Source: Microcoleus sp. FACHB-831 (GTDB lineage Bacteria; Cyanobacteriota; Cyanobacteriia; Cyanobacteriales; FACHB-T130). Taken from it: a stretch of DNA of 64,000 nucleotides. The stretch spans positions 62,001-126,000 of the forward strand of contig NZ_JACJON010000036.1 of NCBI RefSeq assembly GCF_014695585.1. Direction: 5' to 3'. A model generated the notes under the pieces. That model was not told the origin of the DNA. It saw only the letters and a list, made by a program, of their open reading frames with translations, and searched no databases. The translations under genes and the position numbers were made by a program. Below, piece after piece: positions 35,216 to 58,253 of the stretch (position 1 is its first letter; the number at the start of each line of letters is the position of its first letter).

Positions 35216-37696
35216 CTAGCCTTTTGCTGTTTGGAGCGATCGCCAATCTTTAATCGCTTTTTCTGTCCACAACCAGTTTTTACTAAGCGCATTCGCTTGA
35301 AAATTAACAGGATCGTCAGACATCACCTTTTGGCTCATCTTCTTCGATGCATTTAGCAAAGTCCCCCGCTTTTCCGGCGGCTGTTTTTGAGCCGATTGCT
35401 TTAGGGCCAGTGCTAACCCAGCGTAAGTGTTCAACGCATCTTTTTTAGACAACGCTCCAGCCGTTGAACCTGCTGGCTTATCTTCAACCTTAGACAGCGC
35501 CTCAAACCAAACTTTAATAGCCTGATCGAACTTGCCTTCAGCATAGTAAGCAAAGCCGAGAGCGTTGAGATAACTACCAGTATTGGGTTGCTTTTTATCA
35601 GCAAGTTCCCAGTAACGACGGGCATCATCTATACTGAAATCCTTCGCTCCCGTTTGCACAGACTGCCACGCCAAACGACCCCGGAGAAAGCTAATTTTAG
35701 GGTTATCAAGTTGCTGTTTGGGTACGGCGGCAAGTGCTGCCTCAGCCGGCTTTAGTGCCTCTCTGTTCAGCAGTTCTTCGACAGCTACAACACCCCCGTT
35801 TAAGTCTCCGCGACTAAACTGGTCAACAGCAATTCCTGTAACAGCGTTGGTTTCAGCTTTCTTCAAATTGAGGTTTTTGGAGTTTTCAACCTGACTTTGG
35901 GAAAGCGACGCTGGAAGGTTAGCCCTACGCAATAACTCATCTGGTTGGGGATCGCGGTTTTGCAACAACCAAAAACCCAATAGAGCGATCGCTGCTAAGC
36001 CTAAAGCCCCCAAACCCATAAAAACAACCGGAACACCTTTGAAGCTTCGTTTCCAGCCCTTTTGTGACTTAGAATTCCCCAGCAGGGAGCCAGAAGCTTT
36101 TATTTTTGAATTCTCTAAACCAGGCGTTTCCCCTTTTGGGGTTTGACTTTTTGCGTCTGGAGTTTGTATCGGGGCTTTTAAACTCTGATTTCTAGATTCT
36201 GCCCCAGATGGCAACCGATTTTCTAAGTTAGAAGCCTGCGCTACCGATTGCTCTGTTGCGGCATTCGGCTTAGGCAACTGCCGAAACAAATCTGCAACCA
36301 GCGCCTCTGCATCGTCGTCGCCCTCATCCAAAAAACCTGGCGGTGCGTCATCGTCATAGCCAACCCAGTCATCCTCCGGCAGCAAACCCAAGTCATCATC
36401 ATAATCAAGGAACCTAGATGCAGCTAAAGCGGGCGACTCTTCGGGCACTTCTTCCTCCCAAGCTGCAATAGCTTCACTTGGATCGGGTAAAGCGAGGCGT
36501 TTTGCTAATTCCGCTGGGTCATTACTCCTGGTGAGCAATCCATCAAATTTTGAATCGAGATATAGAACAGGCAAAGCCCAGTACAGATTGTTGGACCCAT
36601 AGGAAGAAATTAACCCCTGCCGCGCCCGACTCAAACTCAAGTCAATGGGATAACCTTCTTTGAGGTTGCGGTAAAACAGCCGGGTGAGAGTCAGCGCTAC
36701 CTCATCGGGAATCCGTTCTGCCATTGCTAAGACGCTGGGAATCCTGCGCTTGACTAATGCTTGTATGAGGTTTTGTTCTCTCCCGGTGTCTGCGTCCGAT
36801 CCCGATGCTGTATAGGCTCCTCGGCATGAATTAAAGACTGCCATTTGGACGCCATTATTAACCAGCAATCCAGCAAGGTCGTCTCCGCTTAACGTCTCAG
36901 TTAATCCGGTTCTGCCGCTAACGAGGTATAAATCGCCGCCGGATACGCCCAGGTTGCTGTGACCTGCGTAGTGGAAAACGTTGTACTGGCCTTGTTCTAG
37001 GGCTTGGGTTAGTTGCTCGCGTCCTGGCTGTTCGAGAAGTTCGAGTTCAATGGTGGGCGAGTTCTGACTAGAATGGCGGCGGAGTTCTTCTTGCAAGTGG
37101 CTGGCTTCTTGTTTGAGTGCCAGAGTTTCTTGATCGGTGGGACCAGCGATCACCATCAAAATTTTTAGCGGTTGATTGCGATCGCCTGATAGGGTTGAGG
37201 TTGGAGTCCTCAATCCTGTTGTCAGTTCGTAGCGAGAAAAAGCTACATCAGTGCCCGTCGCTAGGGGGCGATCGTCTGCGTGCAAGACTTCCCAAGGCAG
37301 GCGGAGCAAGCGCGTGTCTTTTAGTCCCAGTCCCAGACGCAGCCGCAAAACCGAGCGATCGCGCTCTGCTAGGGCTTGAGCTATCAGCCAGCTATCTCGC
37401 AGGCTGTCTTTAAATAAAGCGTCGTGAAGTTCCTGTCCCAGCGCCACTAAATTTGGAGAGGATGAATTTCCCAGCCAGTCTCCATTTCCCCCTCGTGAGG
37501 GCGCAGCTTGCAGCAACTCAGATAAGGGGTCATTCATCAGTTGCCCCGCGATCGCCAACCAATCATCTACAGGCCATCTCACCTGCTCTTGGGCAACGGG
37601 AACCCCCGGTGCGCCCCATTCTCTTCGCACCAGGTATTCGTCTTGCGCCTTTAAAGGAGTTACAGAGATATTAAATTCGTGGGCTACTGGTGACAT
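35216..37696 (-). CDS. CHAT-domain (caspase-like) protein with TM helix and TPR-like tail
   Basis: An 826-residue protein. The CHAT peptidase domain spans about 90-385: LRLPWEVLH, then the dyad His246 in NVFHYAGHSNLG and Cys291 in MAVFNSCRGAY, followed by RIPSVLAMAERIPDEVALTLTRLFYRNL. An acidic linker (about 410-475) and a low-complexity region lead to a transmembrane helix near 560 (VVFMGLGALGLAAIALLGFWLL). The C-terminal ~230 residues are helical, with TPR-like units (TGSYLNALGFAYYAEGKFDQAIKVWFEAL). The layout suggests a cytoplasmic protease domain and an outer repeat domain. Role unknown. Confidence 0.88.
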   Translation of the reverse strand: MSPVAHEFNISVTPLKAQDEYLVRREWGAPGVPVAQEQVRWPVDDWLAIAGQLMNDPLSELLQAAPSRGGNGDWLGNSSSPNLVALGQELHDALFKDSLRDSWLIAQALAERDRSVLRLRLGLGLKDTRLLRLPWEVLHADDRPLATGTDVAFSRYELTTGLRTPTSTLSGDRNQPLKILMVIAGPTDQETLALKQEASHLQEELRRHSSQNSPTIELELLEQPGREQLTQALEQGQYNVFHYAGHSNLGVSGGDLYLVSGRTGLTETLSGDDLAGLLVNNGVQMAVFNSCRGAYTASGSDADTGREQNLIQALVKRRIPSVLAMAERIPDEVALTLTRLFYRNLKEGYPIDLSLSRARQGLISSYGSNNLYWALPVLYLDSKFDGLLTRSNDPAELAKRLALPDPSEAIAAWEEEVPEESPALAASRFLDYDDDLGLLPEDDWVGYDDDAPPGFLDEGDDDAEALVADLFRQLPKPNAATEQSVAQASNLENRLPSGAESRNQSLKAPIQTPDAKSQTPKGETPGLENSKIKASGSLLGNSKSQKGWKRSFKGVPVVFMGLGALGLAAIALLGFWLLQNRDPQPDELLRRANLPASLSQSQVENSKNLNLKKAETNAVTGIAVDQFSRGDLNGGVVAVEELLNREALKPAEAALAAVPKQQLDNPKISFLRGRLAWQSVQTGAKDFSIDDARRYWELADKKQPNTGSYLNALGFAYYAEGKFDQAIKVWFEALSKVEDKPAGSTAGALSKKDALNTYAGLALALKQSAQKQPPEKRGTLLNASKKMSQKVMSDDPVNFQANALSKNWLWTEKAIKDWRSLQTAKG

Positions 37697-37899: not shown

Positions 37900-38047
37900 T
37901 AGCATTCCGCATCGAGTTCGGCGACTAGACGCGAAATTTTCTGGCAAGCTATCCGGATCTTGTCCCTAACTGACGAACAGTAGATTGGTAGATGCACCCT
38001 GATTGACTTCCCCTGGCTCACCGGTTTGAGCCGGGGATTTTTTTATT
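37900..38047 (+). ncRNA. Candidate small RNA ending at an orphan terminator
   Basis: A strong rightward terminator (38010-38047) lies 310 bases beyond the start of the leftward CHAT gene, and no rightward gene precedes it for 3 kb. This implies a short rightward transcript within about 37700-38047. The 5' end given is a guess; TATAGCATT near 37899 is the only -10-like word I noted. No ORF with a ribosome site fits. Low confidence in boundaries, moderate in existence. Confidence 0.3.
38010..38047 (+). terminator. Intrinsic terminator without an obvious gene
   Basis: CCCC-T-GGCTCA (38010-38020) pairs with TGAGCC-GGGG (38027-38036), with one bulged T, then ATTTTTTTATTT. The T-run is on the rightward strand only. 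Confidence 0.85.
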
Positions 38048-57161: not shown

Positions 57162-57764
57162 TTATATTGAATTTTATAAGAAGCAATAAATATATAACTA
57201 TTTTCTTATGCTCTCAAAATGAGAGTATTCTGTCAAAAAGTGATGTCTCCATCTGGAAGTTTCCGAGATCGGGTGCAAGATGAATAGCGAGTGAGTGGTG
57301 CAAGGGCGATCGCTGGGGTTTACATTCGGCAAACAGTTTTAAAGTCTACAAAACTATCCTTATCTCTCTTCGCTTTCAAGACGTGTAGGAGTGTATCGCT
57401 GTAACAATTCTTCTTGTGCAGCAATATTTTCAGCAAAAGCTGGTTGCAGCAGCCATGTCCGAGAGGTGGCGATCGCTACACTACACGCAGACAAGAGTAA
57501 CTGTTTCATGGCTATAACATCTTAAAGAGGGAAATTTCGCACATCTAGGCGGTAATTGCCCTATGGCGCTGGGTTACGCGCGACCGCTCTTAGTTTAGCT
57601 AGGGAACCGGGCGATGTGGCGAAAATCCCGGTGTAACTTTGATGATGGAGCGCGATCCCAACGCCTGGGTTCTTGATACACCTCAAACCTTAGTGCTACT
57701 TAGGAAGCACTGCGCTACAATAGTATTGTTTGCTTTTGTCAAATATAGACTTTAAGAGAGAATC
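57162..57764. other. Intergenic region containing a possible small ORF
   Basis: About 600 bases upstream of the second infC gene. It carries HIP1 sites near 57307 and 57468, a candidate -10 word TACAAT at 57716, and the small leftward ORF listed separately. Promoters of higBA (leftward) and infC (rightward) should lie at its two ends. Confidence 0.4.
57360..57509 (-). CDS. Possible small exported protein of 49 aa
   Basis: Read leftward from ATG at 57509 the ORF starts MKQLLLSACSVAIATS, then WLLQPAFA followed by ENIAAQEELLQRYTPTRLES and stop. The N-terminus has the look of a signal peptide with an AFA-type cleavage site, so it may be a short secreted protein or the stub of a longer lost one. 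No ribosome site is visible. It is too short to be sure. Confidence 0.35.
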   Translation of the reverse strand: MKQLLLSACSVAIATSRTWLLQPAFAENIAAQEELLQRYTPTRLESEER

Positions 57765-58253
57765 ATTATCGCTCCCAAACAACTGATTAACAATCAAATC
57801 AAGTCTGCTCAGGTTCTTTTGATTGACCATGAGAACAACAATCGTGGCTTGATTGATACCCGTGAGGCTCTAGAAATAGCTGAAAATGCAGGACTAGATC
57901 TTGTCATAGTCTCCGAAAGTAAAGATGCTCCCGTAGCTAAAATTTTGAACTACGGCAAGCATCAGTATCAACAGAAAAAACGTCAGCGCCAAAGTTCTCA
58001 ACCAACGGTTAAGGAAGTTCAGCTCCGTCCCAATGTTGGTGAATCTGATTACACCTTACGCATCGAGAGAGCGACCGAGTGGTTGAGTAAGGGTAATTCA
58101 GTTAAGTTTCAGATTCGTTTACGGGGCAGGGAAAATCAACATCGCGATCGCGCTACAGAACTGCTAGACCGTGTTGTAGCTGACCTAGCTAAAGTCGGTA
58201 AAGTTATGTCTTTTGATAAACGGTCGCTAATAGTTCAGGTCATTCCAGCCTAG
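57765..58253 (+). CDS. infC: Second, divergent translation initiation factor IF-3 paralog, likely AUU start
   Basis: About 162 residues with both IF-3 domains. The N-domain is QLINNQIKSAQVLLIDHENN and TREALEIAENAGLDLVIVSESKDAPVAKILNYGKH. The C-domain is VKEVQLRPNVGESDYTLRIERATEWLSKGNSVKF, ending MSFDKRSLIVQVIPA. It differs clearly from the standard cyanobacterial IF-3, which begins with different residues and is longer. No ATG, GTG or TTG exists between the in-frame TAA at 57753 and codon 19. The conserved N-domain begins at ATT 57765, so it likely initiates at AUU as E. coli infC does, which permits feedback control. AAGAGAG is a weak ribosome site. Confidence 0.85.
   Translation: MIAPKQLINNQIKSAQVLLIDHENNNRGLIDTREALEIAENAGLDLVIVSESKDAPVAKILNYGKHQYQQKKRQRQSSQPTVKEVQLRPNVGESDYTLRIERATEWLSKGNSVKFQIRLRGRENQHRDRATELLDRVVADLAKVGKVMSFDKRSLIVQVIPA

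Follow-up and report, generated by a model that had tools for sequence, protein, structure and literature searches.

We identified a second gene for translation initiation factor IF-3 in Microcoleus sp. FACHB-831, referred to here as IF3-B, that most likely starts with AUC, and we found a codon of the AUU/AUC/AUA class (AUH; ATH in DNA) with an upstream Shine-Dalgarno (SD)-like sequence conserved in every relative examined. The gene itself, its family membership and its presence as a second copy are established. We consider it reasonably probable that this diverged IF-3 is translated from the AUC at 57768, behind an SD-like sequence, and is gated by IF-3 activity. Coordinates refer to the window, which is the whole 64,000-nucleotide stretch of DNA that was analysed; the genome that holds it comprises 6.42 Mb in 85 contigs.

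The IF3-B coding sequence (57768..58253, plus strand) specifies a protein of 161 amino acids with no cysteine. A Pfam scan placed both IF-3 domains above the curated cut-offs, with IF3_N (PF05198, E 6.9e-24) at 57786..57992 on the plus strand, corresponding to residues 8-76 of the frame counted from 57765, and IF3_C (PF00707, E 1.4e-19) at 58005..58211 on the plus strand, reaching profile position 70 of 86 and having a shorter last loop than that of the main IF-3. These matches assign IF3-B to the IF-3 (infC) family, and the protein scored 146 bits against TIGR00168 (cut-off 60). IF3-B is also predicted to have the IF-3 fold: a modest-confidence AlphaFold2 model (pLDDT 71.2, pTM 0.46), weak in its N-terminal half, was closest to IF-3, with bacterial or mitochondrial IF-3 or IF-3-complex entries making up its top 15 PDB matches. 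The main infC gene of the same genome is located on contig C67 (G000:C67) and IF3-B on C36, and the two proteins are 37% identical over 151 columns. An earlier reading of the window from its letters (the sequence-only reading) had claimed a second IF-3 paralog that differs from the usual cyanobacterial IF-3, and had suggested searching for the main infC elsewhere in the genome. Both claims are borne out, and the gene on C67 answers that reading's own concern that the genome might lack a second infC.

At E <= 1e-50, IF3-B was present in 105 of 388 sampled genomes of the class and in 48 of 160 genera, with the window's genome included. In a sample drawn across the phylum, the match list gave 25 of 386 genomes, again counting the window's, and the main infC was also seen in 24 of these 25. 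Six plasmid records had a best match at 60-80% identity, and the best five listed were from Nostoc. Matches in 32 phage records were all below 60% identity, and a phage origin of IF3-B was rejected. The family is under purifying selection (median dN/dS of 0.046; 30 sequences formed 435 pairs, of which 117 were usable). Other arrangements of IF-3 genes were also observed. One genome (G220) has two IF3-B copies, on contigs C103 and C46, and the main infC was not detected in its assembly, perhaps because of an assembly gap. Two other genomes have a different second IF-3, one of which (L178, G123:C209) groups with the main type and the other (L179, G110:C2) is very divergent.

In the window, the frame is closed upstream by TAA at 57753..57755 (plus strand), which is followed in order by GAG AGA ATC ATT ATC GCT CCC. 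Beyond this stop there is no ATG, GTG or TTG in frame until the TTG at 57819, although there is a CTG at 57783; the sequence-only reading was thus correct in finding none of the three codons between the stop and the conserved N-domain. That reading placed the start at the ATT at 57765..57767 (plus strand), which we judge to lie just upstream of it. The most likely start codon is the ATC at 57768..57770 (plus strand), one codon further on. An SD-like GAGAG at 57756..57760 (plus strand) lies 7 nt ahead of this ATC; it is weak, and most relatives have GAGG, GGAGG or AGGAGG.

We compared 105 loci representing 101 distinct sequences, with the window's counted among them and the others 65-86% identical to it. 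Based on the spacing from start to core, the sequences form two main length classes, one of 32 that contains the window's sequence and is free of gaps, and one of 63 that is one codon longer; six sequences have other lengths. A plain protein alignment pairs the ATC of the longer class with the window's ATT 57765. Because this leaves the start codons of the two classes in separate columns, we counted codons class by class instead, making no use of the SD. In the window's class, the codon at 57768 was ATH in 32/32 sequences (ATC 16, ATT 13, ATA 3), and the codon at 57765 was ATH in only 12/32 (ATT 11, ATC 1), the others being CTT (13), ACT (3), GTC (2), GTT (1) and GCT (1). In the longer class, the start column was ATC in 63/63 sequences and the preceding codon was ATH in 44/63. 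The extra codon of the longer class is placed after the start only by the constant SD distance and the small residue that follows.

Translation from AUU 57765, as the sequence-only reading proposed, is very unlikely given these counts. The plain alignment sets this ATT opposite the ATC of the longer class, and ATT is the commonest codon directly preceding the proposed start (56/101), both of which favor it; by contrast, its SD spacing would be 4 nt in the window and, where relatives have ATT at that position, mostly 5 nt, and CTT is the commonest codon there in the window's own class. Hence, a start of the AUU/AUC/AUA class stands for every relative examined, but the codon is probably AUC 57768 rather than AUU 57765.

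We defined the start by rule as an ATH codon located 6-10 nt downstream of an SD-like match, and all 101 distinct sequences contain one; the SD-like match is three bases long in seven of these, and across relatives the SD is mostly GAGG at 8 nt. The codons chosen were ATC in 84 sequences, ATT in 13 and ATA in 4, after one (L049) had been moved by alignment, and the next residue, which is independent of the rule, was Val (49), Ala (39) or Ser (13) in 101/101. Conservation of ATH alone is no proof of a start, because an internal Ile codon is also ATH and never ATG. Most longer frames are, however, excluded by nearby in-frame stops, which lie exactly five codons upstream in 55/101 sequences and within five codons in 58/101. 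In 70/101 sequences there is no ATG, GTG or TTG from the in-frame stop to the start. The other 31 have a canonical codon upstream in frame, mostly TTG without an SD; in four sequences (L072, L077, L090, L116) such a codon is preceded by an SD-like match, L030 carries an ATG eight codons upstream of the start, and L089 has an ATG two codons upstream, 2 nt past its SD.

With the rule fixed, we fetched 40 more loci as a holdout, seven of which repeated earlier loci. The 33 new loci all conformed to the rule (32 by script, L201 by eye). A divergent group of twenty shares 54-64% identity with the window's protein; here the preceding codon was CTT or CCT in 19/20, and the second residue, read by eye, was Ala (13), Thr (4), Leu (2) or Val (1). 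All loci are related, and the locus counts are therefore not independent events. Overall, the comparisons point to a conserved start codon outside AUG/GUG/UUG in IF3-B, and the AUC would be the start used in vivo. We also observed a second IF3-B subgroup (L183-L200), 58-64% identical to the window's protein, that accompanies the first IF3-B in many genomes of the family coded f27 and mostly has the layout GGAG, 9 nt, then ATC or ATT.

An internal start at TTG 57819..57821 (plus strand), which the sequence-only reading had named as an alternative and which corresponds to some public annotations, would yield a product of 144 amino acids. Of the three Nostoc plasmid regions examined, two have their annotated start at a TTG that aligns with 57819, and the third has it at a different TTG, 36 nt ahead of the match; 66/101 sequences have TTG at this position. 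The other 35, however, have a different Leu codon, and a start here would remove conserved N-domain residues, including N8 and I11, which precede the TTG and are invariant in 32 chosen rows. We regard this start as extremely improbable, and retain AUC 57768.

IF3-B probably has its own promoter. An extended -10-like box, GCGCTACAAT, at 57712..57721 (plus strand) is a putative promoter element that ends 46 nt ahead of the start codon. The motif G[TC]G[TC]TANNNT occurs within 100 nt upstream in 65/101 sequences, ending 42-50 nt ahead of the start in 53; base shuffles gave a mean of 2.5, with the qualification that the motif was picked after the sequences had been inspected. When 32 chosen upstream regions were aligned, the TA of the box did not vary. 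The box at 57712..57721 was not among the predictions of a general sigma-70 scan, and RNAalifold predicted no pair, and hence no conserved structure, in 32 aligned leaders. For a genome that we took to be that of Nodularia (G289), Table 2 of PMC3610870 lists two infC transcription starts just upstream of the main infC, none upstream of IF3-B among the top 50 listed, and a start for rbpA1, which is the downstream neighbor of IF3-B.

We next consider other infC genes. The main cyanobacterial infC genes (n = 38), in which a canonical codon was looked for within 25 codons of the domain, have an ATG, GTG or TTG start in 38/38 cases; two also have an SD-preceded ATT. Their products (L001 and 37 others) share the IF-3 domains with IF3-B, but differ from it in the canonical start, in having no SD match in 37/38 and in having Cys at E. 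coli position 65 in 38/38. Among 19 infC genes of phylum members that do not belong to the class (L159-L177), an ATT, ATA or ATC codon follows an SD in 16, ten of which lack a canonical start; the other three have canonical starts only. These genes resemble IF3-B in family and start, whereas they are single-copy in each of the 19 genomes examined and are at most 49% identical to IF3-B among the matches listed. In fetched records, infC is annotated from ATT in E. coli, from ATA in Falsirhodobacter and from GTG in Anoxybacillus, where an ATT sits closer to the domain. An AUH start is common in infC at large.

As described in the relevant passages of PMC5472188, IF-3 represses non-canonical starts, E. 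coli infC starts with ATT, and in Streptomyces infC starts with ATC and the GTC-started sigR is repressed by IF-3. Since IF-3 represses AUU/AUC/AUA starts, IF-3 activity is predicted to hold down IF3-B translation. A start of this class, a known IF-3 target, is present in every relative examined, so the suggestion of the sequence-only reading that this paralog may sense IF-3 levels is soundly inferred. We propose that IF3-B would be translated from AUC 57768, probably from its own promoter, that IF-3 activity (from the main IF-3, IF3-B or both) would repress this translation, and that IF3-B would consequently be produced whenever ribosomes outstrip the available IF-3 activity. With its canonical start, the main infC would not be subject to this feedback. 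Both the repression by IF-3 and a physiological trigger of this kind are predicted. E. coli infC resembles IF3-B in its AUH start, its IF-3 product and a start class repressed by IF-3, but in E. coli the AUU and the autoregulation are on the main infC, whereas in cyanobacteria the AUH is on the second copy and the main infC is canonical. Streptomyces infC shares the ATC start. Streptomyces sigR, with its GTC, is a further gene under IF-3 control through a non-canonical start (PMC5472188), paralleled by the repression predicted for IF3-B; the difference is that in cyanobacteria the further gene itself encodes IF-3.

The AUC could instead be a retained infC trait that sets a low, self-limited level of IF3-B through autoregulation by IF3-B itself, with no sensing of the main IF-3 and no special trigger. 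The frequency of AUH starts in infC fits this explanation, as does the phylogeny, which leaves the origin of IF3-B compatible with either tree. IF3-B formed one clade in a quick tree of 45 chosen rows (SH-aLRT 100, stem 1.74), and in this first tree it grouped with ten genes from beyond the class (SH-aLRT 94, not starred), with a value of 84.8 in a second tree made without the long branches L175, L177 and L179; however, a tree uniting IF3-B with the main IF-3 in a single clade was not rejected by an AU test (p 0.606) and was the likelier one by 8.2 log units. The two proteins can be expected to share the 30S target, so an IF3-B insulated from the main IF-3 would have to be unusually specific, and IF3-B is strongly unlike the main IF-3 and has been kept under selection. 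For these reasons we think self-limitation unlikely, and favor gating by IF-3 activity.

The rRNA-facing basic residues of E. coli IF-3 are, we assume, R99, K110, R112, R116, R147 and R168. Of 94 distinct IF3-B proteins, 87 retain R99, all 94 retain Y107, R131 and R133, and 91 retain R147 (E. coli numbering); the K110 position is Arg in 93/94. The R116 position is Gln, Glu or Gly in 80/94, R168 falls in a gap, and the R112 position is mostly acidic or Asn, a position at which the main IF-3 has Arg in only 3/38; Trp is present at position 117 in 94/94. IF3-B would be expected to bind 30S. It is possible, although on balance doubtful, that IF3-B is no longer a standard IF-3 and binds 30S or other RNA for subunit storage, or for translation of a few mRNAs, in the cold or other stress. 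The long stem branch, the changes at positions 112 and 116, the invariant Trp117 and the short last loop are consistent with such an altered function, but both domains and several basic residues are retained, and the structure model matches IF-3 best.

Genes for RRM RNA-binding proteins near IF3-B in several lineages also bear on this possibility. E. coli IF-3 promotes translation of cold-shock mRNAs, according to the passage concerned in PMC7873864, and Rbp1, an RRM protein, is needed for cold adaptability in Synechocystis, as given in part of PMC9333190; both count in favor of an altered function. RRM genes lie within 5 kb at 18 of 81 IF3-B loci, with none found at 63/81, some flanks being short, and near 5 of another 24 loci whose flanks extended 1.5 kb, these samples overlapping with the 81 loci and with a set of 17 genomes. 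In that set, an RRM gene lies within 5 kb of IF3-B in 6/17 genomes (G289, G204, G343, G047, G387, G357); for the main infC, the corresponding count was 0/17. Binomial values for this proximity were 1.4e-8 and 2e-16, with kinship ignored and densities rounded. Neighbors are, however, no evidence of function, and the window's own IF3-B has no RRM neighbor: of the nine RRM genes in its genome, a single one shares its contig, ~79 kb away. No gene family was constant around the 81 IF3-B loci; the largest neighbor cluster (27 loci) looked like multi-domain linkage and was set aside.

Cysteine is absent from 99/101 IF3-B proteins, a property that is not unique to IF3-B because 11 of the 19 infC proteins encoded outside the class are cysteine-free too. 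Only the absent cysteine and the nearness of RRM genes in some lineages hint at the stress-specific translation that the sequence-only reading considered possible. A more specific scheme, which we put forward tentatively and think improbable as a whole, is a relay of two IF-3 proteins in many cyanobacteria, in which the canonical-start main IF-3 would hold the AUC-started IF3-B off for as long as the main IF-3 is present and active; otherwise the cysteine-free IF3-B would be derepressed and take over initiation for a stress programme. Examples of a trigger would be a hit on the main IF-3 via its conserved cysteine, or ribosomal subunits outnumbering the main IF-3 in the cold.

Elsewhere in the window we observed a match to NsiR1 (Rfam RF02399, 64.5 bits) at 37986-38045 on the plus strand; a lax threshold revealed no further copy in the 800 bases around it. 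The match lies 290 nt upstream of, and divergent from, a gene for an 826-amino-acid protein (35216-37696, minus strand) that is presumably hetF. NsiR1 is known from heterocyst formers.

Gvozdjak and Samanta, cited in PMC9845219, have reportedly dealt with non-AUG genes on arXiv. Our literature search returned no account of a second cyanobacterial IF-3 or of its start among the matches listed. In the relevant parts of PMC5987646 and PMC8967839, cyanobacterial infC appears only as a marker or as InfC All4623. AUH-started infC is already known; for a second, AUH-started gene in cyanobacteria the matches listed contained no report.

If the proposal is correct, the start codon of IF3-B would act as a sensor between two versions of one initiation factor, and the IF-3-sensitive start would sit on the second gene and not on the main one. 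The start site of all three annotated records examined would also need correction. With the gene in approximately a quarter of the sampled genomes of the class (105/388), these conclusions would bear on a large group of cyanobacteria.
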